Assembly: GCF_037971845.1 (NCBI RefSeq)
Contig: NZ_CP150227.1
Span: 1,860,001-1,924,000 of the forward strand
DNA length: 64,000 bases
Reading direction: 5' to 3'
Source of the DNA: Paenibacillus sp. FSL R5-0766
GTDB taxonomy: Bacteria; Bacillota; Bacilli; Paenibacillales; Paenibacillaceae
The translations under genes were made by a program, and so were the position numbers. The notes below the pieces were generated by a model. It was not told the origin of the DNA and did not search any database. It worked only from the letters and a program-made list of their open reading frames with translations. Shown piece by piece: positions 11,905-25,510 of the stretch. The first letter of the stretch is position 1; the number at the start of each line of letters is the position of its first letter.

Positions 11905-13278
11905 TTATTTCTCTGAAGGAGCAGGTACAGTTACTGAAACCTTATCCCCAGGGTGAGCTACCATTTCGGGGGATTGGGTATTCGAAGGAACGGCAACGAT
12001 TTCAGGAGATTCACCCGTAAAAGGAACAGTGGCTGATTCTACAACTTTAGCCTCAGAAGGTTTAGTAGTAGAAGGTACAGTAGCAGACGGTACAGTAGCA
12101 GACGGAACTGGCACAGCTTCGGAAACTTCATCCTCAGGGAGAGCCACGATTTCAGGAGTTTCGGAAGTGGAAGGCGCAGTTACAGCTTCGGAAATTCGGG
12201 CCTTGTTGGGAGAAGCTACGATTTCAGAAGATCCATCAGTAGAAGGAACAGGCACAGTTTCAGAAGCCTCAGCCTCCACTTTAACCGTATGGTTTGATGC
12301 CCATACGGCGGTGGACGTACTTACGCCTGTAATAAGCAGGAGGGCTCCCATACTTATCATCCAATGTTTCTTTTTCAGTTTCTTTACATTAAACATAATC
12401 ATCAATCTCCTTTTTAATTGTTTGCCTTCACCCGATAGGGACGAACAAAATTGAGCAGGCATTTTCTTGGTTCCCGCCATCACATTTAAAATCGTCTCAC
12501 CATATCGTCTCCGCTCTTCATGGGACATCTCTTTCACGACATCTTCATCACAAGCCAACTCGCTCCAGGTATGAATGTCCCGGCGAATCATATGAATCAG
12601 GGGATTGAACCAGTGCAGGGCACTAACGCCCAAGGTCACAGCCTTGACCCACAGATCTTGATGTTTCAGATGTACCAACTCATGATGAATTACCATGCTG
12701 ATGTCCATTTTCACCGTATTTTCGGGTGGCAGATATATCGTTGGTTTAAACAAGCCAACCAGTATAGGGCTTCGTACTAGCGTGCTGTGAGCAAGAGTGA
12801 TATTGCGTTTGAGACCCAAAGCCTCTTTGATTAATGGTAGCTGTATAGCTGCCTCACTATGACAGAGGACTGGCGTACGTGTACGAGATAATTCATTCAG
12901 AAATCTCCGATAACAGTACACCTGCCATGCAGAAAAACTGATGACTCCAATGCCCCATACGCATAACAAGAACCAGGCTGTGGTTACCGAAATGGTTTGT
13001 TCCGGGATAAACGTTCCTGCAAGTGCGCCCGAAGCTGCTGCATTCTCCGTACCCGGTATAGTTGATGTCGTTTGGAATGCAATATCCAAAAGCCATGAAA
13101 GGCCAAGAGATACCGGGAACAGATAAAACAAGAGAGCCAGTTTACCGAGTCTGTAGAGCCACTTGGTCGGAAAAACAGATACGGGTATAAGTCGTAGTGC
13201 CAAAATACAAACAGAAACGATACTTCCCGCCACGGTCAGGCTGTACAGAATTTCAAAAAAGATGTTCATCATCTGCAC
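11905..13278 (-). CDS. BlaR1/MecR1-like M56 peptidase with a repetitive extracellular tail
   Basis: Up to 457 residues; GTG 13278 directly follows the blaI-like stop, and ATG codons at 13272 and 13269 are alternative starts. Four membrane helices and a zinc-protease motif HELVH (H199, E200, H203) with the downstream glutamate region LACDEDVV place it in peptidase family M56. In BlaR1 and MecR1 a penicillin-binding sensor domain follows the last helix (here about 308-330). That domain is missing: residues about 333-457 are instead a low-complexity tail of four to five imperfect repeats built on SEAVPVPS and PEIVAxP. It is coupled to the BlaI-type repressor gene upstream and probably cleaves it on a signal. 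The signal is unlikely to be a beta-lactam sensed in the usual way. Confidence 0.85.
   Translation of the reverse strand: MQMMNIFFEILYSLTVAGSIVSVCILALRLIPVSVFPTKWLYRLGKLALLFYLFPVSLGLSWLLDIAFQTTSTIPGTENAAASGALAGTFIPEQTISVTTAWFLLCVWGIGVISFSAWQVYCYRRFLNELSRTRTPVLCHSEAAIQLPLIKEALGLKRNITLAHSTLVRSPILVGLFKPTIYLPPENTVKMDISMVIHHELVHLKHQDLWVKAVTLGVSALHWFNPLIHMIRRDIHTWSELACDEDVVKEMSHEERRRYGETILNVMAGTKKMPAQFCSSLSGEGKQLKRRLMIMFNVKKLKKKHWMISMGALLLITGVSTSTAVWASNHTVKVEAEASETVPVPSTDGSSEIVASPNKARISEAVTAPSTSETPEIVALPEDEVSEAVPVPSATVPSATVPSTTKPSEAKVVESATVPFTGESPEIVAVPSNTQSPEMVAHPGDKVSVTVPAPSEK
11929..12270 (-). repeat. Imperfect Pro/Val/Ser-rich repeats in the BlaR1-like tail
   Basis: The tail coding region repeats units of about 22-34 codons. 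Units begin SEAVxxPS or ESATVPF and continue with PEIVAxP or PEMVAHP. A 12-base unit (GCAGACGGTACA and variants) is also duplicated in tandem near 12075-12105. Such regions expand and contract easily. Confidence 0.7.
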
Positions 13279-13653
13279 CTACTTTTCCGAAAGCCATTTT
13301 TTCAGTTCTGAAATGTCATCGTCTGAAAGCTTGTCACCGTCATACATGGCCGAAACCAAATTTTTAACTGAACCTTGGTAGAGTCCATCAAGAACATGTT
13401 GCGTTTCCTGTAGTTTGTAATCTTCGGGCTGTAGAAGAGGTACATAATCATTGGTCCGTCCACGTCTCGTAACGGTAAGAGCGCCTTTATCCACCAACCG
13501 TGACAGAAAGGTAGACATGGTCTGCGCTTTCCACGCTTTCCCCTTCTCAGCAAATATGTCTAATAGTTCTGTCGAAGTGACGGGTGGATCGCATGACCAT
13601 ATAACAACCATTAACTCCATTTCTGTTTCGGATAATTTTTGAATCTGGTTCAC
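13279..13653 (-). CDS. BlaI/MecI/CopY-family repressor
   Basis: 124 residues from GTG 13653, selected because AAGGAG lies eight bases upstream; a GTG at 13662 overlaps the spacing region. The N-terminal winged helix (about 1-75: LSETEMELMVVIWSCDPPVTS, with KAQTMSTFLSRLVDKG as recognition helix) and the C-terminal dimerisation region (VSAMYDGDKLSDDDISELKKWL) are typical of BlaI/MecI. It binds as a dimer to TACA-TGTA dyads and is inactivated by cleavage by its partner M56 protease, encoded immediately downstream. Two dyads in the upstream region fit autoregulation. Confidence 0.9.
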   Translation of the reverse strand: MNQIQKLSETEMELMVVIWSCDPPVTSTELLDIFAEKGKAWKAQTMSTFLSRLVDKGALTVTRRGRTNDYVPLLQPEDYKLQETQHVLDGLYQGSVKNLVSAMYDGDKLSDDDISELKKWLSEK

Positions 13654-13703
13654 AGTGAACACTCCTTAACATCGTTATGCGTCCATAACGATCGTATTAC
13701 TAC

Positions 13704-13739
13704 ACTACGTAGTATGTATAAACTACTACAACTTGTAGT
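13704..13739 (-). promoter_or_regulatory. Two BlaI-type operator dyads
   Basis: ACTACGTAGT (13704-13713) is a perfect palindrome and ACTACAACTTGTAGT (13725-13739) is a perfect dyad with seven-base arms. Both resemble the TACTACA/TGTAGTA operators of BlaI and MecI repressors. They lie 51-86 bases upstream of the repressor start. Confidence 0.7.
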
Positions 13740-13821
13740 GGATAGTCAAGTTATCCTGATAGATGCTTGCCAAACCATGTTATAATATAGGTCATTATAT
13801 AAAAGAACGATGTAGGAGTGA

Positions 13822-14343
13822 ATGATCATTACAGCATATCAATTACCTGCTCTCTATGAGCAGAAGCGAGTTTCAATGCACGAGATGGAAGAGATTGTAC
13901 GCCTGTTGGCTCAGGCACCTTTATTATACGATGATGGACAGAGCATTCAGGTTCAGGATTACATGGGAGGCTTGGAGGTCGAACTTGAGCATGAGGTACG
14001 TCGTGCAGTAACCGAGTTGTATGAACTGGCTGTTCAGGCCTGCCGCGTTTTCGCCGATCCATTGGCGTACGAGCAACTTCAGGATGCGCTTGGGTTACAG
14101 GCTGAGTTATGGCAGGAGGAAGTGCTTACTCTTGCAAATTGGATGAATTGGTTGAAGCAGATCAGTGAAGGAAAGAGAACACTGCCTGAGTACAACTTCA
14201 CAGCGATGCTAGGGAACTTGCCGGACGGATTCATGATCCATGATTTTTATGATGAGCTCCGATATCAGCTGGAACAAAACCCTGCAAACGCATGGGCTAT
14301 CGACGAGCGGGATCGCTTGTACGCCTCCCTGGGTGCGAAATAA
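13822..14343 (+). CDS. Conserved hypothetical protein
   Basis: 173 residues; ATG behind TAGGAGTG. Not recognised. It is acidic and largely alpha-helical (repeated Glu/Leu/Gln pattern through residues 30-110), with no signal peptide, membrane helix or metal-binding motif. The C-terminal part has FMIHDFYDELRYQLEQNP. It starts 160 bases from the divergent blaI-like gene and therefore might share its control region, although the operator dyads are placed for blaI. It is followed by a gene for an unrelated epimerase after 117 bases. Confidence 0.72.
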   Translation: MIITAYQLPALYEQKRVSMHEMEEIVRLLAQAPLLYDDGQSIQVQDYMGGLEVELEHEVRRAVTELYELAVQACRVFADPLAYEQLQDALGLQAELWQEEVLTLANWMNWLKQISEGKRTLPEYNFTAMLGNLPDGFMIHDFYDELRYQLEQNPANAWAIDERDRLYASLGAK

Positions 14344-14460
14344 ATCAAACTAACGGGTCACCGGCGGTGTTTAATCTAATATCTGCATTTTGCATGCATA
14401 GAAACATTCCAATCTATACCTTACGAATTCTTTACCCAGTATGGGAAATGAGGAGATACC

Positions 14461-15351
14461 GTGAAGAAGGTTGTATTAGCTGGTGGAACGGGATTTGTCG
14501 GACAGGATTTTGCCCAAAGGTTCAGAAAGCTGGGGTATGAGGTGTTAATTATCTCGCGTCAGCCCGGTCATATTGCCTGGGAGGATCGTGCAGGAATTAT
14601 AGGGGCACTGGAAGAAGCAGAAATGTTGATTAACCTGGCAGGTAAATCGGTGAACTGCCGTTATACAGAGGAGAATCGCAAAGTCATTCTGGAATCCAGA
14701 ACCCGTACAACGCGCATTCTCGGGGAAGCCGTCCTGGCTTGTAATCATCCTCCTGAACTATGGATTAATTCGAGTACAGCAACCATATACAGAGATGCTG
14801 AAGATCGTCCCATGACGGAAAAAGAGGGCGAGATTGGCTCTGGCTTCTCGGTCGACGTTGCCAAGGCATGGGAACAGGCTTTCTTTGAATTCAGTCTGCC
14901 GTCTACGCGACAGATTGCACTGCGGATCGCGATTGTGCTGGGCGAGGGTGGCGTGATAGTGCCAATGACAAATCTGGTTCGTTTTGGACTGGGAGGATCT
15001 CAAGGCGCAGGAACACAGCAGTTCAGCTGGATTCATATCGAGGATCTCTTCCGCATGGTAATTTATCTGCAAGAGCATCCACACTTGAATGGTGTGTTCA
15101 ATGCGTCCTCTCCGCATCCGGTGACGAATCGGGAGTTAATGGCGCGTCTGAGAGAACAGATGGGTGTTCGGATTGGACTGCCTTCTCCTCGCTGGATGCT
15201 TGAACTTGGCGCACGTTTTATTCAGACCGAGACGGAACTGGTTCTCAAAAGCCGTTGGGTCATTCCAGAGCGAATGGAGAGGGAAGGATTCACGTTCACA
15301 TACGGTACACTAGATGCCGCACTTGCCGAGATTTTGAATAAGAAGAAGTAA
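14461..15351 (+). CDS. TIGR01777-family NAD-dependent epimerase (YfhF/SDR39U1-like)
   Basis: 296 residues starting at GTG 14461. The N-terminal Rossmann motif GGTGFVG (8-14) and the segments LINLAGKSVNCRYTEENR, SSTATIY and SWIHIEDL mark the TIGR01777 family of atypical short-chain dehydrogenases. Residues near the C-terminus (PSPRWMLELGARFIQTETELVL, with KSRWVIPE) match the DUF1731 domain found in this family. Its substrate is not known; the Escherichia coli relative YfcH is also uncharacterised. It is a single gene ending in a terminator, and it is not part of the KAS III operon, from which it is separated by a repeat element. Confidence 0.9.
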   Translation: MKKVVLAGGTGFVGQDFAQRFRKLGYEVLIISRQPGHIAWEDRAGIIGALEEAEMLINLAGKSVNCRYTEENRKVILESRTRTTRILGEAVLACNHPPELWINSSTATIYRDAEDRPMTEKEGEIGSGFSVDVAKAWEQAFFEFSLPSTRQIALRIAIVLGEGGVIVPMTNLVRFGLGGSQGAGTQQFSWIHIEDLFRMVIYLQEHPHLNGVFNASSPHPVTNRELMARLREQMGVRIGLPSPRWMLELGARFIQTETELVLKSRWVIPERMEREGFTFTYGTLDAALAEILNKKK

Positions 15352-15383
15352 CAGCACAGTATAAATAATAAAACACAACAGGG

Positions 15384-15412
15384 AGGGCAGAGGCATCTGC
15401 CCTTTATTATAT
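15384..15412 (+). terminator. Terminator after the TIGR01777 gene
   Basis: AGGGCAGA (15384-15391) pairs with TCTGCCCT (15396-15403) over a four-base loop, followed by TTATTATAT. Confidence 0.75.
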
Positions 15413-15440
15413 ATGTTCAACTAAACATTTACACGATAAC

Positions 15441-15575
15441 GGAGAGGGCAGAAAAAACTTGAAGAAGCGAAGCGGTCGCCTTTATCCCCGGATTTTCCCT
15501 TTTTAAGAAGGGAATCAAAAAAATCTGGGGATAACAGCGATCGGAAAGTTGTTCTGTCATCGCAGTGTCTGTGTA
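15441..15575. repeat. Dispersed intergenic repeat, long copy with internal hairpin
   Basis: About 130 bases in the gap before the KAS III operon. It holds TGAAGAAGCGAAGCGGTCGCC, a long imperfect hairpin from TATCCCC (15483) to GGGGATA (15533), with an inner CCCTT/AAGGG stem, and AACAGCGATCGG then TTCTGTCATCGC. Parts recur at 7848-7876 and 26470-26545. It resembles a non-autonomous, structure-forming intergenic element of the kind found many times in Paenibacillus genomes. No gene lies in it. Confidence 0.65.
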
Positions 15576-15632
15576 AATACAATTAGCTGAACTTATATTA
15601 ATCAGTCAGATGAACAGAAAGAGGTTGGGGAA

Positions 15633-16634
15633 ATGCAACTTAGAAGAGTAAGGATCGCAGGAACAGGGAAGTACCTGCCTGAACAGGAAGTTACCGATGA
15701 GGAACTGGATCGCCGCTTGGACGTGCCTACGGGCTGGGTTAGCAAAGCTACAGGCGTAGGTGTACGTCATTATGCTTCGGGTGAAGAAACCTCCTCTTTC
15801 ATGGGCGCACGGGCTGCGGAAGCTGCACTGGCGGATGCAGGATTACAATTCAGTGATATCGACTGTCTGGTGTGTACCAGTGGCACGAAGGAACAACCGT
15901 TGCCAAGTACGGCGGTATTTATCCAGCAGGCCATGGGGCAGCAAGATTCAGGCGTACCTGCTTTTGATATGGATGCAACCTGCCTGAGTTTCCTGAACGG
16001 ACTCGATGTGATCTCCTATATGGTAGATGCTGGACGTTACCGGCGAGTACTGCTCGTAGCCACCGAGATTGCCTCAGCCGGACTGAATTGGTCAGATAAA
16101 GAGAGTGCGGCCCTGTTCGGAGATGGCGCGGCCGCTGTTATTATTGAACGTTCGCCTGAAGGATCATCGTCGCAGATTGTACATGCTTCCCTTCAAACCT
16201 ACAGCCGAGGTGCTCGCTTCTCGGAGATTGCAGGTGGAGGTACACGGCTGCATGCTTCGAATTATAAGGCAGATCAACCTGAGCCCTACCTATTTCATAT
16301 GGATGGACAGGCGATCTTCCGCATGGCTTCCAGACTTCTGCCTGGATTCATCAGCGAAATGCTGCAGGCAACCGGGAATCGAATGGCGGATTTCCAATTG
16401 GTCATTCCCCATCAGGGAAGTGCCATGGCGATGAGACTGATTCGCAAGAAGCTTGACATTGCTGAAGATCGGTTTATGGACATCACACGAAATCACGGCA
16501 ATACGATTGCGGCATCGATCCCGATGGGTCTGCATGAAGCGATTAGACAACAGCGTATTCAGCGTGGAGATCGGGTGTTGATGATTGGCACAGCTGCCGG
16601 ATTATCATTGGGAGGACTCATTTTTGACTACTAG
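15633..16634 (+). CDS. 3-oxoacyl-ACP synthase III family condensing enzyme
   Basis: 333 residues, FabH-like length. The catalytic triad is visible: C117 in DMDATCLSF, H260 in VIPHQGS and N290 in NHGNT. KAS III enzymes condense an acyl-CoA or acyl-ACP with malonyl-ACP; the OleA branch instead joins two acyl-CoA molecules head to head. The gene opens an operon with ATP-grasp, OleD-like, metallo-hydrolase and adenylating genes, so it is more likely a pathway enzyme than the housekeeping FabH. OleA uses a second-site glutamate in its dimer partner that I cannot check by eye. The last 11 bases overlap the next gene's TTG start. The thiolase fold is certain; the substrate is unknown. Confidence 0.92.
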   Translation: MQLRRVRIAGTGKYLPEQEVTDEELDRRLDVPTGWVSKATGVGVRHYASGEETSSFMGARAAEAALADAGLQFSDIDCLVCTSGTKEQPLPSTAVFIQQAMGQQDSGVPAFDMDATCLSFLNGLDVISYMVDAGRYRRVLLVATEIASAGLNWSDKESAALFGDGAAAVIIERSPEGSSSQIVHASLQTYSRGARFSEIAGGGTRLHASNYKADQPEPYLFHMDGQAIFRMASRLLPGFISEMLQATGNRMADFQLVIPHQGSAMAMRLIRKKLDIAEDRFMDITRNHGNTIAASIPMGLHEAIRQQRIQRGDRVLMIGTAAGLSLGGLIFDY

Positions 16635-17916
16635 ATCTGGGGAAACCAGACATCGTACAGCTGCTTCTCTCCGTGTGTTGCTTACAGGCGGAAGGGCTCC
16701 CGTAACGCTGGATCTGGCACGCATGCTTCATCGGGCAGGCCATCGGGTCTATGTCGCGGAGAGTGCCGTACGGCATCTGACCAGATCATCTCGTGCAGTG
16801 GAACAGTGCGCTGTGGTCCCATCGCCGCGTCATAACACACGTGCGTATCTGGCAGAGCTGGAAGGGTTGGCACAGGATTGGCAGATCGACCTGTTGATTC
16901 CGATGTGTGAAGAAGTCTTTTATGTTGCTCAAGGGGCAGACAGACTGCGTGTATATTGCCGTGTTCTGGTTACAACTCTGGAGCAGCTGTATGAGCTGCA
17001 TCATAAATATGATTTTATCCAGCTTGCAGGCTCACTCGGTCTTTCGGTTCCGGATACACGCCTGATCCACAGTCGGCAGGAATGGATGGAAGCTCAGTCT
17101 GTTCTGGGAAAACTAGGAGATTGGGTATGGAAGCCGGTGTATTCCCGCTTTGCAGCCAAAGTTCGCATGCCAATACTCATGACCGATGACGCTGGGGTAG
17201 GGACGGATCAGGAAGGAAACGTAAGCGAAAAGAAACGTCGACATTTTCGTAACGACCCTCCGGAAGAAGGGGAATTATCCGTTGCTTCACCTTGGGTTGC
17301 ACAGGCCTACATTCCTGGTCAGATGTTATGTACTTACAGCATAGCGCATGAAGGGCAACTGGTTGCACATGCCACTTACGACAGTCGCTATCGTACAGGA
17401 AGCGTGGGAGCCAGTGTTTTTTTTGAACAGGTGGAACATGAAGGTGCCCTTGCGTGGGTGAGACAATTTGTTGAGGCAACGGGTTTTAGTGGGCAGATTG
17501 GGTTTGATTTTATAGAAGGTCCGGATGGGCAGGTATACGCAATTGAGTGTAATCCGAGGGCAACGAGTGGGATTCATCTATTTCACCCCGGAGATGACTT
17601 GGTGCGTGCACTAACTGAACCGGAGACGTTGGTAAAAGAAAGAAAAATGATCACGCCCGCACGGGGCAGCAAAGCCATGCTCATGCTTCCCATGTTAGGA
17701 AGCGGAGTACAGCAGATCTTTGGCAAAGGGAAGCTCCGTGCATGGATAGCTGCGTGGCGTGGAACCAGGGATGTGGTCTATGTAGGGCAGGATATCCAGC
17801 CTGTATTTGAACAATTCGGAGTGGTGCTAGCCGCATGGCGTCTGGCAAAATCGCAGAAGTGCTCGCTGACTGAAGCTTTGACTCATGACATAGAATGGAA
17901 CGGTGAACAACAATGA
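16624..17916 (+). CDS. ATP-grasp domain ligase in the KAS III operon
   Basis: 430 residues from TTG 16624: GGAGG at 16611-16615 sits eight bases upstream, inside the KAS III coding sequence, so the genes are translationally coupled. A pre-ATP-grasp Rossmann region (RVLLTGGRAPVTLDLARML) is followed by the ATP-grasp fold with WVWKPVYSR (lysine binding ATP), AQAYIPGQ, and the metal-binding end GFDFIEG and AIECNPRATSGIHLF. Such enzymes activate a carboxylate as an acyl-phosphate and join it to an amine, thiol or hydroxyl. A probable role is joining an acid made by the cluster to a second molecule. Substrates cannot be read from the sequence. Confidence 0.88.
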   Translation: MTTRSGETRHRTAASLRVLLTGGRAPVTLDLARMLHRAGHRVYVAESAVRHLTRSSRAVEQCAVVPSPRHNTRAYLAELEGLAQDWQIDLLIPMCEEVFYVAQGADRLRVYCRVLVTTLEQLYELHHKYDFIQLAGSLGLSVPDTRLIHSRQEWMEAQSVLGKLGDWVWKPVYSRFAAKVRMPILMTDDAGVGTDQEGNVSEKKRRHFRNDPPEEGELSVASPWVAQAYIPGQMLCTYSIAHEGQLVAHATYDSRYRTGSVGASVFFEQVEHEGALAWVRQFVEATGFSGQIGFDFIEGPDGQVYAIECNPRATSGIHLFHPGDDLVRALTEPETLVKERKMITPARGSKAMLMLPMLGSGVQQIFGKGKLRAWIAAWRGTRDVVYVGQDIQPVFEQFGVVLAAWRLAKSQKCSLTEALTHDIEWNGEQQ

Positions 17917-18908
17917 ATAGAGCATTGGTTACAGGAGCTACGGGATGTCTGGGCAGGCATCTCGCGATACGGCTTGCCCAAGAGGGATGGGAAGTCACTG
18001 GCATGGGCCGACAGCCAAAGGTTGGTGCAGAACTTGAGTCGGCAGGAGTCCGATTCCTCAATGGAGATATACGGAATGAGGCAGTAGTAAACGAAGGGTG
18101 TGCGGGGCAGGATATGGTGTTTCACTGTGCGGCACTATCATCGCCATGGGGTAAATATCGTGACTTTTATAGCAGTAATGTAGAAGGCACACAAAACCTC
18201 ATTGATGTATGCCTGCATAATAAAGTACAGCGATTCATACATGTCTCGACTCCAAGTATATATTTTAACTACATACCACGATATAACGTACATGAGAATG
18301 ACCCGTTGCCATCCAAACCAGCCAATCATTATGCAGCCACGAAGCTTCTCGCTGAGCAGGTTGTAATGGAGGGGCATGCGAAGGGGCTTCCGTCGATCAT
18401 CATTCGACCGCGAGCCATCTTTGGTCCGTATGATCAGACGTTATTTCCCAGAATTGTCGCAGCAAACGCGAAATCGGGCGTGCCCATGATCGGTGATGGA
18501 CAGGCATTAATCGATCTGACCTGTGTGGATAATGTGGTGGATGCCTTATTATTGTGCCGCGATGCCTCTACAGAAGCACTTGGTAGAGCCTACAATATCT
18601 CCAATGGCGATCCAAGGGCGTTCAGTGAGTTGGTGAGCAGCCTGTTTGGCATGCTGGATATGCCCTTGCGTCGTCGAAACATTCCTTATCGGATGGCATA
18701 TGGTGTGGCAGCGTTGCTGGAGCGAGTTCATGGCTATATTCCTGCGTTGGGTGAACCTCCGTTGACACGGTATACAGTCGGATCCTTATCCATCCCACAG
18801 ACGTTGGATATTACGGATGCACGGGAGCAATTGGGATACATCCCTCGGGTGTCCATTGAAGAGGGATTGCAACAATTTGCAGACTGGTGGAGGGCTGAAT
18901 CATGCTGA
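17913..18908 (+). CDS. OleD-like NAD(P)-dependent 3-beta-HSD/epimerase family reductase
   Basis: 331 residues; ATG overlaps the previous stop (ATGA). The N-terminal TGATGCLG motif binds NAD(P), and the catalytic YAATK (tyrosine and lysine of an extended SDR) follows near residue 135-140, with serine in HVSTPSIYF. The pattern (FHCAALSSPWG, VEGTQNLID, RPRAIFGPYD) is that of the 3-beta-hydroxysteroid dehydrogenase subgroup. OleD, which reduces the 2-alkyl-3-ketoacid made by OleA in long-chain olefin synthesis, belongs there. Having a KAS III gene two genes upstream supports reduction of a beta-keto product. The assignment to OleD itself is by resemblance only. Confidence 0.85.
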   Translation: MNRALVTGATGCLGRHLAIRLAQEGWEVTGMGRQPKVGAELESAGVRFLNGDIRNEAVVNEGCAGQDMVFHCAALSSPWGKYRDFYSSNVEGTQNLIDVCLHNKVQRFIHVSTPSIYFNYIPRYNVHENDPLPSKPANHYAATKLLAEQVVMEGHAKGLPSIIIRPRAIFGPYDQTLFPRIVAANAKSGVPMIGDGQALIDLTCVDNVVDALLLCRDASTEALGRAYNISNGDPRAFSELVSSLFGMLDMPLRRRNIPYRMAYGVAALLERVHGYIPALGEPPLTRYTVGSLSIPQTLDITDAREQLGYIPRVSIEEGLQQFADWWRAESC

Positions 18909-19762
18909 CAACAACTCCGGTGGAACTATATTTGGGTGCGGCGGGTTACTGTACACATCCGGAGTTTCTGACGCTGCGTGGTGGTCGATTGAGTCCAGTA
19001 CCTTTCCCGGCAGGATTTGCCTGCATCATTCATCCCGTACATGGACCGATCCTGCTGGATACGGGATATAGTTCCCGCTTTTTCAAGGAAACGGCTCATT
19101 TGCCTAACGCACTGTATCGTCATATTACACCTGTGGTCTATCGCGAGGAGGATAGTGCCGTTCATTTTTTGGCTCGAATTGGACTGAAAGCTTCGGATAT
19201 TCGGTATATCATCCTCTCGCATTTTCACGGCGATCATATCGCGGGTGTACGAGATTTCCCGGAGGCACAATTTATCTATCTGCCAAGGGCCTATGATGCT
19301 GTGCGCTCACTTGGTCCGATTGCGGCTGTAAAAGCAGGCTTTCTTGCCGGGTTGTTGCCCGAGGATTTTATGGCCAGATCATGGCCTGTTACGTGTGAGC
19401 CTGAGCGATGGACGAGAGCGGGGGAAGCTTTCCCTTTTGATGAGGTCTATGACATCTTTGGTGATGGCAGTCTGCTGGGGGTGGATGTATCCGGTCATGC
19501 GGAAGGCATGATGGGACTTCTGTTGCGTACCGAAGAACATGACTATTTTCTCTGCGCGGACGCGGTGTGGTCGAGTCGGGCTTTTCGTGAACAACGCAGA
19601 CCTCATGCGCTTGCGGGTATTATTATGTCGAATCGACAGGAATACCACCGTAATTTTGACAAGCTGGTTCAGCTGTATCAGCAGTTTCCCCACATTCGAA
19701 TTGTGCCGAGCCATTGTCGAGATGTACTGGACGCTTGGGGCACAGGAGGGCAGAAACGATGA
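18902..19762 (+). CDS. Metallo-beta-lactamase-fold hydrolase in the KAS III operon
   Basis: 286 residues, start overlapping the previous gene by seven bases. The di-zinc site is complete: H107-x-H109-x-D111-H112 (HFHGDH), H199 (SGHAEG), D220 (CADAVW) and H271 (VPSHC). This arrangement is like that of N-acyl-homoserine lactonases and glyoxalase II, which open lactones or hydrolyse thioesters. No signal peptide is visible, so it is not a periplasm- or surface-type beta-lactamase. In the context of a condensing enzyme and an adenylating enzyme it may release a thioester product or open a lactone. Its substrate is unknown. Confidence 0.88.
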   Translation: MLTTTPVELYLGAAGYCTHPEFLTLRGGRLSPVPFPAGFACIIHPVHGPILLDTGYSSRFFKETAHLPNALYRHITPVVYREEDSAVHFLARIGLKASDIRYIILSHFHGDHIAGVRDFPEAQFIYLPRAYDAVRSLGPIAAVKAGFLAGLLPEDFMARSWPVTCEPERWTRAGEAFPFDEVYDIFGDGSLLGVDVSGHAEGMMGLLLRTEEHDYFLCADAVWSSRAFREQRRPHALAGIIMSNRQEYHRNFDKLVQLYQQFPHIRIVPSHCRDVLDAWGTGGQKR

Positions 19763-21087
19763 GTAATACCTTTCGCATTGTAGTTCATTATGCACTCGCA
19801 CGTGGGCTGCGAACATGGAAAACACGAGAACAACTTGAGCGCTGGCAAGAGCGCCGGATTATTCGGCATGTTCATCAGATCCGTGCCCGATCTCCGTTTT
19901 ACCGGAAGTGGTGGGGTGGCGTGGACGCAACCGACTGGAGAAGCTTTCCTTTGATTGACAAATCAATCATGATGGAACATTTCGATACACTGAACACGGT
20001 GGGCATTACCAAAGTTGAAGCGCTGGCTCTTGCAGGTGAAAGTGAAGAAACGCGTGATTTCAAACCTTCCATTCAAGGCGTGACCGTTGGATTGTCTTCG
20101 GGTACGTCAGGGAACCGGGGAATATTTCTGGTAAGTGATCGGGAGCAGGATGCGTGGACGGGCAAAGTGCTGGCTAAGTTGCTGCCCGGTGGACTGTGGA
20201 AACCTGCCAAGATTGCATTTTTCCTGCGAGCCAACAGTAATCTGTATGAATCGGTGCAGCGTGGCAAATTGCAATTTCAGTATTTTGATCTGCTGGAACG
20301 TGTGGAGACCTTGGTTAAGCGGCTGGAAACCTACCAACCTACCGTGTGGGTGGCTCCTCCATCCATGCTGCGTCTGTTGGCGGATGCCTATGTGGCAGGC
20401 TATCTGACTGCTGTACCGGATAAAATCATCTCTGTTGCCGAGGTGCTGGACCCCCTGGATCGCAAGGTGTTGGAGAAGATCTTCGGACAGACCGTTCATC
20501 AAGTATATCAGTGTACAGAAGGGTTCCTGGGTGCAACCTGTCGTTATGGCACACTGCATTTGAATGAAGATATCGTGCATATTGAAAAAGAGTTCATTGA
20601 TCCCGCCACCCGACGGTTCGTGCCCATTATTACGGACTTCTCCAGAACATCACAGCCGATAATCCGGTATCGGCTGAATGATATTCTGACCGAGGCCGCG
20701 CTGCCATGTGCCTGTGGTTCCCCGTTTACTGCCATTGAGCGGATTGAAGGCCGCTGTGATGACACGCTTTATTTTTCAAACATGCATACGGGTGAGGCGG
20801 TACCGGTCTTTCCGGATTTCGTTACCCGTTCGGTCATTGCGGCTTCGCCGGATATTGAACATTATCGTGTGGTGCAGCAAGGGGACGGAACAATGGAGGT
20901 ATCCCTTCGACTTGGGGGGAACGCAGTGATGGCTCAGGTTGAGACCAATGTACTGCTGGAACTGATGAAGCTGGGAGAGCGGCTTGAATGCACCTTACCT
21001 GAGATCAGATTTGTACCGTATACGTTTGAACCGGGACTTACGAAGCTGCGCAGGGTGGAGAGACGGCATAATGGAGTGGCGGATTAA
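19759..21087 (+). CDS. Putative adenylate-forming enzyme, F390 synthetase-related (PaaK-like)
   Basis: 442 residues from ATG 19759, overlapping the previous stop by four bases, with GGAGGG upstream. Features of the phenylacetate-CoA ligase-like adenylating family are visible: SSGTSGNRG (phosphate-binding loop), VAPPSMLRLLADA, VYQCTEGFLGATC and RYRLNDIL. The N-terminal part (YALARGLRTWKTREQLERWQ) matches the TIGR02304 putative adenylate-forming group, related to the coenzyme F390 synthetases of archaea. It would activate a carboxylic acid as acyl-AMP and transfer it to a thiol, alcohol or amine. The co-linear genes suggest it works on the product of the condensing enzyme. The acceptor is unknown and no carrier protein is encoded nearby. 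Confidence 0.85.
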   Translation: MSNTFRIVVHYALARGLRTWKTREQLERWQERRIIRHVHQIRARSPFYRKWWGGVDATDWRSFPLIDKSIMMEHFDTLNTVGITKVEALALAGESEETRDFKPSIQGVTVGLSSGTSGNRGIFLVSDREQDAWTGKVLAKLLPGGLWKPAKIAFFLRANSNLYESVQRGKLQFQYFDLLERVETLVKRLETYQPTVWVAPPSMLRLLADAYVAGYLTAVPDKIISVAEVLDPLDRKVLEKIFGQTVHQVYQCTEGFLGATCRYGTLHLNEDIVHIEKEFIDPATRRFVPIITDFSRTSQPIIRYRLNDILTEAALPCACGSPFTAIERIEGRCDDTLYFSNMHTGEAVPVFPDFVTRSVIAASPDIEHYRVVQQGDGTMEVSLRLGGNAVMAQVETNVLLELMKLGERLECTLPEIRFVPYTFEPGLTKLRRVERRHNGVAD

Positions 21088-21156
21088 GCAGTAGGTGCCG
21101 TGCGGTATAGGTAGGAACGGGAAGTAAGTAATTTACCGAGGAAAGAAGGACACACC

Positions 21157-22077
21157 GTGACAGTAGAGGAAAACTTAACAGAAGCCGGACAGGGACGGAT
21201 TAATGCAGGTTCTGATGTAGTGAAAAAGACGAAGGAAGGAATTAACGCTCCGGTGGCCTTAATTACAGGCACATCCAGCGGCTTCGGTATGCTCACCGCA
21301 ATCACCCTTGCCAAGCAGGGATATCTTGTTGTTGCTACAATGCGTGATCTGAGTCGAAGAAAAGAATTGGTGAAACTGGCTGAACAGGCGGGGATAACCG
21401 AACGTTTGCAATATGTGCAACTGGACGTGACTGATGCTGAATCAGTGCAGGAAGCTGTGGGGTCCGTACTTCTTCATAATGGCCGAATAGACATGCTGGT
21501 GAACAATGCAGGATTTGCGGTTGGCGGGTTCATTGAGGAAGTGTCGATGGAGGATTGGCGGCGCCAGATGGAAACGAATCTATTTGGATTAATCGCTGTG
21601 ACACGTGCGGTCCTGCCTGTGATGCGTGAACAGAAGCAGGGGTTAATTATAAATTTGTCCAGCGTCAGTGGGTTGTCCGGTTTCCCAGGATATGCGCCCT
21701 ATGCTGCCTCCAAATTCGCTGTGGAAGGATTCACGGAAAGTTTGCGGCATGAGATGTCTTCTTTTGGTGTTCGGGTGGTATTAGTTGAGCCTGGCTCTTA
21801 TCGCACACCGATCTGGAATAAAGGTTTGGGTGAGATTCACCGGAGCGAGGACTCTCCGTATAAGCATAAGCTGGACGCGGTTCTTCGTTATTCCAAACAT
21901 GCGAGCGAGACGGCACCTGATCCACAGGAGGTAGCTGATCTGATCGGCCGAATTGCACGGATGCGTGCACCAAGACTTCGATATGCGCTCGGAAAAGGTT
22001 CGCGTGTGCTCATCATAGGTAAAGCACTGCTACCCTGGAAGTGGCTGGAGTGGATCATCGCCCGTGGTTTAAAATAG
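21157..22077 (+). CDS. Short-chain dehydrogenase/reductase (SDR)
   Basis: 306 residues from GTG 21157 behind GAGGAAAGAAGGA. The first 28 residues are a non-conserved extension; then come TGTSSGFG (NAD(P) binding), NNAG, serine in NLSSVSG, and YAASK with the catalytic tyrosine and lysine. The sequence resembles the classical SDR group acting on retinol and steroids, such as YkvO or related 3-oxoacyl reductases. It lies 69 bases after the adenylating enzyme and may be the last gene of the operon, although the gap is larger than at the other junctions. The C-terminus (LLPWKWLEWIIARGLK) is amphipathic and could associate with membrane. Confidence 0.85.
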   Translation: MTVEENLTEAGQGRINAGSDVVKKTKEGINAPVALITGTSSGFGMLTAITLAKQGYLVVATMRDLSRRKELVKLAEQAGITERLQYVQLDVTDAESVQEAVGSVLLHNGRIDMLVNNAGFAVGGFIEEVSMEDWRRQMETNLFGLIAVTRAVLPVMREQKQGLIINLSSVSGLSGFPGYAPYAASKFAVEGFTESLRHEMSSFGVRVVLVEPGSYRTPIWNKGLGEIHRSEDSPYKHKLDAVLRYSKHASETAPDPQEVADLIGRIARMRAPRLRYALGKGSRVLIIGKALLPWKWLEWIIARGLK

Positions 22078-22097
22078 AGATTTGGTAGGAGCCAAAA

Positions 22098-22274
22098 TTG
22101 TACAGTTTGCGAATGGGAGGGTTAGCCATATTCGAATTCATCGTCATTATTTTACTTCTTGTGATTGTGGGTCTGCTCTTTCATATCAATAGCAAGCTGC
22201 CAGCGCGTGACCGGGTGAAGGAAGCAATGGAACGGGATCGGAATCAGAAACTTAATCAGGATGCTCCAAATTAA
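22098..22274 (+). CDS. Small single-span membrane protein
   Basis: 58 residues from TTG 22098, with TAGGAG six bases upstream. Residues about 10-28 are one strongly hydrophobic helix (IFEFIVIILLLVIVGLLFHI); a charged, Lys/Arg/Glu/Asp-rich tail of about 30 residues follows (NSKLPARDRVKEAMERDRNQ). I do not recognise a family, though it resembles the many small membrane proteins of Bacillales with one helix and a charged cytoplasmic tail. It starts 20 bases after the SDR gene and ends 16 bases before the DJ-1 gene start, so it is likely co-transcribed with them. The gene is short but its frame and codon use look coding. Confidence 0.6.
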   Translation: MYSLRMGGLAIFEFIVIILLLVIVGLLFHINSKLPARDRVKEAMERDRNQKLNQDAPN

Positions 22275-22290
22275 AACGCGGAGGTTACCA

Positions 22291-22872
22291 ATGAAAATTG
22301 CATTCGTTTTGTTTGATGGACTGACTTTTCTTGATTTTGCAGGGTTTTATGATGTGATCAATCGGTTGAATTTCTTTGAACCTACCAAAGGAACGACGTG
22401 GGAAACCTGTGCCATGACAGATCAGGTCACGGATGAGTCTGGTCTAACGTTGAAGGTGGATCGGGTGAAGCCTGACCTGTCGGAATATGATCTCGTGTTT
22501 ATCCCTGGGGGCATGGGAACGCGCAAGCTTCGATATGACGAGGCCTTTGTAGGTTGGCTGAAACAGGCTGAGTCTGTGCCTTTGAAGGTTTCGGTGTGCA
22601 CAGGCTCTCTGCTGCTGGGTGCAGCTGGTTTTTTATCTGGCAAAAAAGCAACAACACATCCCCGTGCATATAATTTGCTTGAGCCATATGTCACTGAGGT
22701 GATTCAGAAGCGGATTGTAAAAGATGGAAATGTAATTACTGCCGGTGGAGTAGCCACGTCCATTGATCTGGGGATTTATGTTGTTGGGTTGCTTGCAGGA
22801 CAGGAAGCGGCAGCGAATGTAAAACTTCAGATCGATTATCCTTATGAGATGCAGGGAGTGGTCGAAGAATGA
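22291..22872 (+). CDS. DJ-1/PfpI family protein
   Basis: 193 residues from ATG 22291 with GGAGG upstream. The class-I glutamine amidotransferase-like fold is visible: FVLFDGLTFLDFAG, VFIPGGMGTRKL, nucleophile Cys103 in VCTGSLLLG, and the dimer region ATTHPRAYN, then TAGGVATSIDLG. Relatives include DJ-1, PfpI, and the GATase1_PfpI domain of AraC regulators; proposed activities include isonitrile hydratase, glyoxalase and chaperone functions. The substrate is unknown. The stop overlaps the next start (ATGA), coupling it to a GNAT acetyltransferase. An in-frame ATG at 22261 is rejected because it lacks a good RBS. Confidence 0.88.
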   Translation: MKIAFVLFDGLTFLDFAGFYDVINRLNFFEPTKGTTWETCAMTDQVTDESGLTLKVDRVKPDLSEYDLVFIPGGMGTRKLRYDEAFVGWLKQAESVPLKVSVCTGSLLLGAAGFLSGKKATTHPRAYNLLEPYVTEVIQKRIVKDGNVITAGGVATSIDLGIYVVGLLAGQEAAANVKLQIDYPYEMQGVVEE

Positions 22873-23462
22873 ATGCAGGCCGAAAGCAAGAGACCTATGC
22901 CATTCGCAATATTCAGCGGGATGAAGCAGACATTTACTGGCCTTTGCGACTGGAAGCACTGAAAACACATCCTGAAGCCTTCGGGGCTTCGTTTGAGTTG
23001 TCCATTCAACTCCCCATGAGTGAAGTGCAGGAGCGCATACATAATGAACCGGATGATTATATTCTGGGAGCATACACAGAAGAAGGAACCTTGGCGGGAA
23101 TGATGGGTTTCAAAAGGGAACATGGCCTAAAGCTCAGGCACAAAGGTATGATCTGGGGCGTCTATGTAGCTCCGCCATATCGGGGAAGTGGGCTGGCTTC
23201 ACGTTTGCTCCGCGAGGTGCTGGATCGGGGAAGACATCTGGAAGGTATCAAGCAGATTAATCTGAGTGTAGTGACAACCAATGAATCAGCCCGAAGTTTA
23301 TACGAGAGATATGGATTTGAAGTTTATGGCATCGAGCGTAACGCATTGGAAGTCAACGGTCAGGGATATGATGAGGCGCATATGCATTACTTTTATACGG
23401 AGCATTCAACATTGAATGAAGATACCAGCACAGGAGGAGTCCGAGATGACAGATCAAGTTGA
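22869..23462 (+). CDS. GNAT family N-acetyltransferase
   Basis: 197 residues; ATG overlaps the DJ-1 stop by four bases. The acetyl-CoA binding region is clear: MIWGVYVAPPYRGSGLASRLL (motif A with the RGxGxA-like loop) followed by NLSVVTTNESARSLYERYGF (motif B). The N-terminal half carries FGASFELSIQLP, which is common in RimI-like family members of Bacillales. It probably acetylates a small amine or protein; the substrate is unknown. The final 17 bases overlap the following kinase-like gene start at 23446, another coupled junction. Confidence 0.88.
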   Translation: MNAGRKQETYAIRNIQRDEADIYWPLRLEALKTHPEAFGASFELSIQLPMSEVQERIHNEPDDYILGAYTEEGTLAGMMGFKREHGLKLRHKGMIWGVYVAPPYRGSGLASRLLREVLDRGRHLEGIKQINLSVVTTNESARSLYERYGFEVYGIERNALEVNGQGYDEAHMHYFYTEHSTLNEDTSTGGVRDDRSS

Positions 23463-24330
23463 ACTTGAGATCGATGGTATTTCCTTTGTTTTAAAAGAGT
23501 CTCATTCTTTCGATTGGTTACAGCCATTGGGTACGGTCTTTCGCGTATTCGATCAGCAGGATTCAGGGAATCTCTCCTTCGGTATTGTGCAAAAGGATGG
23601 AAAGCGATTGTTCATTAAATATGCGGGAGCGCATACGATTCATGCGAATCATACGGGAAGTTCCCCGGAAGCCATTCGTAATCTGAAATCATCTGTTTCC
23701 GTCTACGAGGATCTGGCACATGACACGTTGATTCGACTAACGGATCATTTTGCAACGGATGAGGGGTATGCCTGTGTATTCGATTGGGTGGATGGGGAGT
23801 GTCTGCACTCCCACTGGTATTTCCCGCCTCCTGCTAAATATGAAGATCCGCGTTCGCCATACCATCGGTTCAGACAGCTTTCGGTGCAGACACGCATTCG
23901 AGCGATGGAGCAGATTCTGAATTTTCATATCGAGGTGGAACGGAGAGGTTATGTGGCTGTTGATTTGTATGATGGCAGTCTGATCTATGATTTTGACAGA
24001 AACTTTATGAAAATTTGTGATATCGATTTGTATCGGAAGGGCTCTTTTACCAATACCATGGGGCGTATGTGGGGATCTTCCCGCTTTATGTCACCCGAAG
24101 AGTTTGAGCTAGGCGCACCCATAGATGCGGTTACCAATGTATTCAATATGGGGGCAACGGCGTTTGCGTTGCTTGGCGGGGAGAAAGATCGTTCCTATGC
24201 CAGATGGGATGCTGGAGAAGCGTTGTATCAGGTTGTGATACGTGCAGTGAGCGACGAGCGGTCCCAGCGGTACGCAACGATTGCGGAACTCGGTGAGGCA
24301 TGGAAAAAAACTGCTTTGCAAGGTCAATGA
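23446..24330 (+). CDS. Divergent kinase-fold protein (protein kinase or aminoglycoside kinase-like)
   Basis: 294 residues from ATG 23446 behind CAGGAGGAG. Kinase landmarks are a beta-strand lysine (K58 in LFIKYA), a hinge region, a catalytic-loop aspartate (D173 in YVAVDLYDGSLIYD), a metal-binding DFG replaced by D192-I-D194 (ICDIDLY), and MSPEEF near residue 210 resembling the APE motif. The normal asparagine five residues after the catalytic aspartate is a serine (S178), a departure from standard Ser/Thr kinases. The sequence could be an active atypical kinase or a pseudokinase. It lies in a cluster with two GNATs and the DJ-1 protein, so its partner is unknown. Confidence 0.72.
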   Translation: MTDQVELEIDGISFVLKESHSFDWLQPLGTVFRVFDQQDSGNLSFGIVQKDGKRLFIKYAGAHTIHANHTGSSPEAIRNLKSSVSVYEDLAHDTLIRLTDHFATDEGYACVFDWVDGECLHSHWYFPPPAKYEDPRSPYHRFRQLSVQTRIRAMEQILNFHIEVERRGYVAVDLYDGSLIYDFDRNFMKICDIDLYRKGSFTNTMGRMWGSSRFMSPEEFELGAPIDAVTNVFNMGATAFALLGGEKDRSYARWDAGEALYQVVIRAVSDERSQRYATIAELGEAWKKTALQGQ

Positions 24331-24419
24331 GTGAATGGGCGGAATTTTCGCAAATATGCAAAATCAAGTCGTATCCGCACTGAAAATCCCGTATAATGGA
24401 AATTAATGAGGAGGTGCAG

Positions 24420-24791
24420 ATGATGTGCAGATATGCCATGTCAGGACCATACAAGGACATCTATGCCTGTTTCAACTGTCGCAAATCATTTAAACAAGTT
24501 TCCAGACATGACCTGAGCCCTGAGGTGGTGGCACAACTTGAATATAAGTGCCCGCAATGTGCCACATCTATGGTTAGCATGGGACAGGATTTCCAGGCTC
24601 CGAAGCAAAATGATACCAAACAATGGACCAAAGTGATGATGCTGTATCGTCATGGCTTTACCTATCATAATTGCGGGTGCGGGGCTGGATATCGCCCGGC
24701 TGATTTACGTGAATTATCCGATTTTCTGGAGCAGCAGGAAGCTGGTAAAGCCAGTGAAGGCAAACGATTATTGCAAAGGTTAACTTCATAG
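24420..24791 (+). CDS. Small cysteine-rich protein, possible zinc ribbon
   Basis: 123 residues from ATG 24420 (GAGGAGGTG upstream). Two cysteine pairs lie at CFNC (about residues 16-19) and CPQC (about 44-47), with a further CGCG near 86-89. The CxxC spacing suggests a zinc-binding rubredoxin- or ribbon-like knuckle, while the third cysteine pair is atypical. The rest is polar, with no membrane helix. No family is recognised. A promoter-like TATAAT at 24392 precedes it. It is followed three bases later by a GNAT gene and may be co-transcribed with it. Confidence 0.7.
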   Translation: MMCRYAMSGPYKDIYACFNCRKSFKQVSRHDLSPEVVAQLEYKCPQCATSMVSMGQDFQAPKQNDTKQWTKVMMLYRHGFTYHNCGCGAGYRPADLRELSDFLEQQEAGKASEGKRLLQRLTS

Positions 24792-24793
24792 TT

Positions 24794-25510
24794 ATGGTTC
24801 CGAAATCGAACCTGTCGCCTATGGAAATGTTGAAAATACAAGCCAATACTTTATATACAATCAATGAGCAGCAGCGTCTATTAAGCATTAACGAGCAGGG
24901 TGGTGGGCAGGCTCCAGCCCTTTTTATCGGCATGACTTCTGCCGGTTCACTGATCTATTACCATGAGCAGTTACCGCCGGATCTAATGGATGAGTTGAGT
25001 AAGGATTGCGAGCTTCCATTGGATATTCCGAAACTGATTCGGAAGGTGGAAACCTTTGAGCCGGTTAACCGTGTGTGGATGGGACCCGCCTATGCTTTTC
25101 CTGAGATATCTCACGAGTGGAATCAGAAGGTTCAGTTGATTGGTCAGGAGCAGCGTTATTTGTTGGCAGAGCATTTCCCTGAACTAACAGATCACTTGCA
25201 TGAAAAAAGCCCTGTTGCCGCTTATGTTATTGGTGATTCTGCTGTGGCAGTGTGCTGCTCTGCAAGGGTTTCCCTTCATGGTGCAGAGGCGAGCCTGTAT
25301 ACGACACCCGGTTATAGAGGACATGGATATGCAGCGGAAACGGTAAAGTGCTGGCAGTATTATGTCAAGGAGCGTGGATGCATGCCAATCTACAGTACAT
25401 CTTGGGATAATCTCGCTTCACAGCATGTTGCCCGTAAACTCGGATTAATCCAGTTCGGTGTGGATTTCAGTATCACAACTGTGGATTTGAGGAAGGACTG
25501 TGATGTCTGA
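24794..25510 (+). CDS. GNAT family N-acetyltransferase
   Basis: 238 residues. The N-terminal 120 residues are a partly degenerate domain and the C-terminal half carries the acetyl-CoA fold: ASLYTTPGYRGHGYAAETVK (phosphopantetheine loop), then STSWDNLASQHVARKLGL. The length and arrangement resemble the two-lobed acetyltransferases often annotated as GNAT/FR47-like in Bacillales. It starts two bases after the cysteine-rich gene and ends overlapping the next GNAT start by one base (TGATG), so the three genes read as one transcript. Substrate unknown. Confidence 0.82.
   Translation: MVPKSNLSPMEMLKIQANTLYTINEQQRLLSINEQGGGQAPALFIGMTSAGSLIYYHEQLPPDLMDELSKDCELPLDIPKLIRKVETFEPVNRVWMGPAYAFPEISHEWNQKVQLIGQEQRYLLAEHFPELTDHLHEKSPVAAYVIGDSAVAVCCSARVSLHGAEASLYTTPGYRGHGYAAETVKCWQYYVKERGCMPIYSTSWDNLASQHVARKLGLIQFGVDFSITTVDLRKDCDV

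Follow-up and report, generated by a model that had tools for sequence, protein, structure and literature searches.

Which pathway is served by a compact bacterial operon that joins a condensing enzyme, a reductase, a hydrolase and two ATP-dependent enzymes? The operon in question occupies positions 15633-22077 of the window analysed here, a stretch of 64,000 nucleotides from Paenibacillus sp. FSL R5-0766 (positions 1,860,001 to 1,924,000 of contig NZ_CP150227.1), and a preliminary description had taken its six genes for one coupled biosynthetic unit with no assigned pathway. We find that four of the six, specifying a beta-ketoacyl synthase III (KAS III), an OleD-like reductase, a metallo-beta-lactamase-fold (MBL) hydrolase and an F390-synthetase-related adenylating enzyme, constitute a core that recurs in Bacillota, Fusobacteriota and Pseudomonadota. 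With about as much confidence as doubt, we read the operon as the Paenibacillus version of this conserved four-enzyme core, which would serve a fatty-acyl-derived pathway not yet characterised. The enzyme families are known and their logic is Ole-like; the combination is uncharacterised, and its single members carry database names only. Genes that have been annotated piecemeal, as 'F390 synthetase-related protein' or 'MBL fold hydrolase', are one conserved module in at least three phyla and in about one in eight complete Escherichia coli genomes (671/5426). If it is true that the module makes a lipid or lipid-like metabolite, that compound has gone unnoticed in bacteria that are otherwise well studied.

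Conservation of the core and its lineage-specific additions

Our sample of relatives comprised 99 genomes, that of FSL R5-0766 and 98 others. The adenylating enzyme, recognised by model TIGR02304 above its cut-off, is encoded in 43 of these, and the operon KAS III (at 1e-80) in the identical 43; in every one of the 43 the two genes share contig and strand, keep one order and lie within 5 kb of each other, and the other 56 genomes contain neither at the thresholds used. Because the two genes adjoin in all carriers and neither is matched in the remainder, their grouping is not due to chance. Weak matches to TIGR02304 below the cut-off occur in 11 further genomes (54/99 at E 0.001), and likewise in most of the wider sample described below. 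A match to the ATP-grasp enzyme is found at 1e-40 in 41 of the 99 genomes, and the remaining two of the 43 (G071 and G098) have the gene by profile. At 24 of 25 loci from named genomes, the genes for KAS III, ATP-grasp enzyme, OleD-like reductase, MBL hydrolase and adenylating enzyme follow one another in this order, the exception (L056) having the adenylating enzyme alone, and a short-chain dehydrogenase/reductase (SDR) gene follows the core at 22 of the 25, with an acyltransferase gene in between at L052. Several genes are in two pieces at L034, as is the ATP-grasp gene at L055. This preservation of order and strand across genomes bears out the preliminary description in treating the run as a coupled unit, and its genes are by no means rarely found together. 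In the operon copies of G059 and G057, genes are in two pieces or contain an in-frame stop, reflecting either decay or sequencing error.

Across the phylum, TIGR02304 is matched above its cut-off in nine of 398 genomes, four of them from the window's own family; the adenylating enzyme is therefore uncommon in Bacillota as a whole, its occurrence centring on this genus and order. A divergent branch (282-290 bits) accounts for three of the nine matches, and the two of these whose surroundings were read (L087 and L088) lack the core. At both loci (L087:9854-12452 and L088:9852-12471) the divergent gene adjoins a membrane-protein gene rather than core genes; the membrane protein of L088 barely reaches the Pfam family HGSNAT_cat, and that of L087 is similar by eye.

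To read more loci, 15 of 30 plasmid records and one E. coli chromosome were opened; a further 18 regions were chosen by hand from the matches of the 99-genome and 398-genome searches. The core stands in a single run at 13 of the 15 plasmid-collection loci, in two of them with an ATP-grasp gene inside the run. These 13 come from E. coli, Ketogulonicigenium, Burkholderia, Fusobacterium, P. urinalis, Pontibacillus, Pseudomonas FeN3W, Paracoccus (two), Paraburkholderia, Rhizobium (two) and Shinella; the KAS III gene is last in the Fusobacterium run, and the ATP-grasp gene is second in those of P. urinalis and Pontibacillus. The E. coli version (NRG 857C, L117:5001-11882) consists of the core plus genes for a PAP2 protein, a fatty acid hydroxylase and a fatty acid desaturase. 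Among 5426 complete E. coli genomes, 672 show a match to this seven-gene stretch, which in 671 covers 80% of its length or more, and in one chromosome the stretch sits between narI and two tRNA-Tyr genes; no described function for it was found in the literature searched. The two exceptions among the 15 loci, the large Pseudomonas plasmids pMPPla107 and pBASL58 (L103 and L110), each contain scattered genes for an adenylating enzyme and an ATP-grasp relative, and L110 also has those for an MBL hydrolase and an OleD-like reductase.

Distances and residues were compared in 24 clusters, the window's included, picked because each has the complete set of core genes and because together they are diverse; L056, L087, L088, L101, L103 and L110 were left out for an incomplete core, L090 for want of an MBL gene, and L032-L051, L053, L055, L095-L100 and L117 as close relatives or near-duplicates. 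Pairwise-distance correlations among the four core proteins were 0.84-0.89, and for each of the six pairs none of 2000 permutations gave a value as high, which demonstrates co-inheritance, not function. The clusters of Fusobacterium and of the Bacilli genome G389 have a common gene order and their KAS III sequences pair at 100/100, which points to joint transfer.

The ATP-grasp and SDR genes are lineage-specific additions to the core. An ATP-grasp gene appears again in Paraburkholderia, one Rhizobium and Shinella, together with a GNAT-like acyltransferase gene and, at some loci, a Rieske protein gene. Elsewhere the accessory genes encode a GT21 glycosyltransferase (Fusobacterium), a family that includes ceramide glucosyltransferases, a GT28-type glycosyltransferase (G389), a sulfotransferase read divergently in three Rhodobacterales (Ketogulonicigenium and both Paracoccus) and, in the Rhizobium locus without ATP-grasp, a DUF3419 protein that we take to be of BtaA type.

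The GNAT-like acyltransferase gene lies inside the cluster at the more distant of the Bacillota loci read (e.g. L052, L054, L086, L089, L092 and L107) and in Paraburkholderia, both Rhizobium and Shinella; it is not in the cluster stretch read in Pontibacillus, G389, E. coli, Fusobacterium or the Rhodobacterales. In FSL R5-0766 it is found 3.2 Mb from the operon among unrelated neighbours (G000:C1:5081337-5082482; L169:9335-10558, minus strand). Of the 43 genomes with the operon, 39 have this gene, versus none of the other 56, and within the same genus the gene is present in 31 of 35 genomes with the operon versus none of 25 without it, although p-values for these counts are too small because the genomes share ancestry. 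Only 10 of the 39 have it next to the operon; in 29 it stands apart, 15 times on the same contig at 2.8-4.0 Mb and 14 times on another contig. Its retention with the operon despite this separation favours a shared function, and the acyltransferase probably belongs to the operon system. Fifteen aligned acyltransferases have many invariant positions in common; PF13480 is reached by three of six proteins scanned, and three members scanned gave no NCBIfam match. The six-gene set originally described is thus real as a unit, but two of its members lie outside the core and a distant gene is probably part of the system.

The condensing enzyme and its partners

The Cys-His-Asn triad that the preliminary description reported for KAS III (C117, H260 and N290) is intact, and it is kept in all 24 clusters. 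The enzyme scores 450.7 bits against NF005541 (PRK07204), above the cut-off of 402, and 248.8 bits against TIGR00747 (fabH), below the cut-off of 292.1; for five distant cluster KAS III proteins scanned, NF005541 is also the best model, yet they remain below its cut-off (292-350.5 bits). In a tree of 46 sequences (24 operon KAS III, 16 FabH and 6 other KAS III, from open reading frames picked with the KAS profile), all 24 operon enzymes form one group with 99/99 support, recovered in 100% of 200 bootstrap trees and separate from FabH; the FabH sequences are from Bacillota genomes only and are not one clean group themselves, and the tree has long branches (L165, L121, op_PsFeN and L145). The FSL R5-0766 genome gives ten KAS III-type matches, nine of them above cut-off, of which two are FabH (452 and 362.4 bits), and FabH above cut-off is encoded elsewhere in the genome in eight of eight genomes searched. 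Although the operon enzyme has the triad and fold of FabH, its position outside the FabH clade and the presence of FabH elsewhere lead us to exclude a role in housekeeping fatty-acid synthesis.

The closest solved chains to the operon KAS III are 4v2p (listed as 'ketosynthase', presumably MxnB; 247.9 bits) and CorB 4yuc (229.5 bits). Against NF006720 (PRK09258), which we take to be the OleA-type model, it scores 122.7 bits, below the cut-off of 285. According to PMC4578411, OleA and PpyS carry a catalytic Glu from the neighbouring monomer (E117 and E105, respectively), whereas MxnB and CorB lack this base and have V94 there instead. The equivalent position in the operon KAS III, placed through that statement on V94 and through alignments with 4v2p and CorB rather than through an OleA sequence, is Leu90; it is Leu or Ile in all 24 clusters and Phe in the two FabHs of the genome. 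With the catalytic Glu missing, a true OleA-type condensation, at which the preliminary description had hinted, is not supported and becomes less likely.

The earlier family assignments hold for the other enzymes, with two refinements. The adenylating enzyme, first called PaaK-like, scores 507.7 bits against TIGR02304 ('F390 synthetase-related protein', cut-off 251.9), a distinct curated family whose name assigns no function and which separates it from PaaK, 2-hydroxyisobutyryl-CoA ligase, NatL2 and AjiA1 of the PaaK family; its adenylation motifs, including K444, are kept in 24/24 clusters. The reductase has the OleD model NF042422 as its best NCBIfam match, over the full length and at 258.9 bits far below the cut-off of 580. 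Its S112, Y140 and K144 are kept in 24/24 clusters and its GxxGxxG motif is present, with Ser for G11 in two of the 24. The chain 6jkg, a sterol-4-alpha-carboxylate 3-dehydrogenase, is the closest solved structure; that enzyme acts on a 3-hydroxy carboxylate. The di-zinc site of the MBL hydrolase was rightly described as complete, as all seven ligand positions (H107, H109, D111, H112, H199, D220 and H271) are present in 24/24 clusters; the nearest solved relatives are acyl-homoserine lactone (AHL) lactonases, and the score against the AttM model is 82.4 bits, below the cut-off of 390. The ATP-grasp enzyme scores 374.5 bits against NF005315 (PRK06849), below the cut-off of 406, has the fold and Mg-site residues of ATP-grasp proteins and, among the structures listed, lies near amino-acid ligases and PylC. 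The structure comparisons of the ATP-grasp and adenylating enzymes, by Foldseek and VIA-align, concern listed matches, and unlisted ones (e.g. OleC for the adenylating enzyme) may exist. Judging from the conserved residues, namely the Cys-His-Asn triad, the MBL ligands, the Ser-Tyr-Lys set and the adenylation motifs, all four core steps are probably catalytic in the 24 clusters.

A candidate pathway and its alternatives

No description of this gene set was found in the open-licence literature, subscription papers and preprints lying outside the search, which agrees with the earlier statement that this combination is not known to have a characterised product. A paper on ladderanes describes an F390 synthetase in type II fatty acid synthesis gene clusters (PMC2649909), an F390/CoF synthetase gene is listed in a P. 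aeruginosa strain (PMC5467263), and a transposon mutant of such a gene is listed for P. syringae pv. actinidiae (PMC9823363); the passages concerned in the latter two give no cluster.

The most economical sequence of events would start with condensation and reduction, proceed to hydrolytic release and end with ATP activation and transfer. KAS III would load an acyl thioester on C117 and condense it with a malonyl-thioester (as FabH does) or a beta-ketoacyl-thioester (as would be the case by analogy with MxnB and CorB), yielding a beta-keto acyl product from a nucleophile that would need no OleA-type base. The OleD-like enzyme would reduce the beta-keto group to an alcohol, the MBL hydrolase would cleave an ester, thioester or lactone intermediate, and the adenylating enzyme would turn the free carboxylate into an activated form, an acyl-AMP or a CoA ester, ready for transfer. 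The product may then be tailored by enzymes that differ between lineages, here the ATP-grasp enzyme, the SDR and the unlinked GNAT-like acyltransferase, the last joining the acyl unit to an amine; double activation with ATP and joining to an amine, as previously suggested, would fit the enzyme families. We infer the substrates, the step order and the product, alongside a gene set, residues, clade and co-occurrence that are observed. A hydroxylated acyl product would fit, since the tailoring enzymes found in the various lineages are of kinds that, where their action is known, mostly modify alcohols or lipids. Tentatively, and with more doubt than confidence, we propose that the core could be an undescribed, horizontally mobile pathway for a hydroxylated lipid that may have two chains and contain no glycerol. 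Individual lineages would furnish this lipid with a head group of their own, be it glycosyl (Fusobacterium), sulfate (Rhodobacterales), 3-amino-3-carboxypropyl (one Rhizobium) or aminoacyl/N-acyl (Paenibacillus), or would desaturate and hydroxylate its chain (E. coli).

Several points weigh against reading the operon as a version of a conserved fatty-acyl-derived pathway. Locus L090 of genome G093 shows no MBL gene between the OleD-like and adenylating genes and four operon-bearing relatives have no acyltransferase, so not every step is obligatory, and two large Pseudomonas plasmids (L103 and L110) hold only parts of the set. Genes that could give a clue to the product, such as those for an acyl carrier protein, a transporter or resistance, are absent from the core, the MBL and SDR folds serve too many reactions for any one to be singled out, and no assay of any member's enzymes was found in the literature searched. 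Moreover, because the genomes are related, the co-occurrence counts and the distance correlations suggest more independence than there is.

Roles parallel to those of OleA, OleD, OleC and OleB, the enzymes of the long-chain olefin and beta-lactone pathway, can be assigned one for one, since both systems unite in one cluster a thiolase-fold condensing enzyme, an OleD-family reductase, an ATP-dependent adenylating enzyme and a hydrolase. The full-length match of the reductase to the OleD model argues for such an Ole-like operon, as do the sterol-4-alpha-carboxylate 3-dehydrogenase and the lactonases nearest to the reductase and the MBL hydrolase. We nevertheless consider it unlikely: the operon KAS III proteins have Leu or Ile for the Glu base and the window's falls well short of the presumed OleA model, the reductase is below the OleD cut-off, the hydrolase is not an alpha/beta hydrolase like OleB, and the adenylating enzyme is PaaK-type rather than ANL-type like OleC. 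The affinity of KAS III to CorB and the presumed MxnB could instead indicate a diffusible signal resembling a pyrone, butenolide or quinolone, with KAS III fusing two chains and the lactonase-like MBL hydrolase, whose di-metal site is as full as that of its AHL lactonase relatives, processing or degrading the product. MxnB and CorB, which likewise have no Glu base, form the alpha-pyrones of myxopyronin and corallopyronin (PMC5724707 and PMC4578411); the operon has no polyketide synthase. It also contains no receptor and no LuxR-type regulator, and the core reductase, adenylating enzyme and tailoring enzymes would be superfluous for a pyrone; a signal is quite improbable in our estimation.

A lipoamino-acid (N-acyl) pathway would place the defining chemistry in the ATP-grasp and GNAT-like enzymes, the core supplying no more than a 3-hydroxy fatty acyl unit through decarboxylative condensation of the FabH kind. 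The FabH triad of a KAS III devoid of the OleA base, the proximity of the ATP-grasp fold to amino-acid ligases and PylC, and the co-occurrence of the acyltransferase with the operon are consistent with this idea; however, the E. coli, Fusobacterium and three Rhodobacterales loci have the core with neither ATP-grasp nor acyltransferase gene in the stretch read, and we hold the idea to be an unlikely one.

Gene layout and the upstream element

All six open reading frames are intact and on the plus strand, in agreement with the earlier account of a six-gene run with small overlaps. Neighbours among the first five genes overlap by 11, 4, 7 and 4 bases, values that follow from starts chosen to fit the length of homologues, and the SDR gene starts 69 bases past the adenylating gene (Table 1). 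The likely ATP-grasp start, a TTG preceded by GGGAGG, and the likely ATG start of the adenylating enzyme each give a protein as long as its nearest homologues.

Table 1. Genes of the operon, with positions in the window
Gene product	Position	Strand	Features
KAS III (PRK07204-type beta-ketoacyl synthase III)	15633..16634	+	C117-H260-N290; Leu90 at OleA/PpyS Glu position; NF005541
ATP-grasp ligase, 430 aa, accessory in the wider family	16624..17916	+	likely TTG start at 16624; mechanical reading frame from 16585
OleD-like extended SDR reductase	17913..18908	+	S112/Y140/K144; GxxGxxG; NF042422 best NCBIfam model
MBL hydrolase, complete di-metal site	18902..19762	+	PF00753
F390-synthetase-related adenylate-forming enzyme, PaaK fold, 442 aa	19759..21087	+	TIGR02304; likely ATG start at 19759; mechanical reading frame from 19714
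Classical SDR oxidoreductase, accessory	21157..22077	+	NF005372, 383.2 bits versus cut-off 320

A promoter and terminator scan gave 8 promoter-like sites versus 7.7 expected, and no Rfam family matched in 13000-25000. Upstream of the KAS III gene, at 15405-15600, lies a palindromic element of about 190 bp that folds at -72.7 kcal/mol (z -9.1) and has no Rfam match. The element is dispersed in the genome, with at least 41 matches including itself (40 of 249 candidates were scored) that are 84-90% identical, apart from one at 71%; the true copy number may be much higher. The intergenic gap that holds it is shorter in some relatives, e.g. at L032, so the element is likely an insertion resembling a miniature inverted-repeat transposable element.

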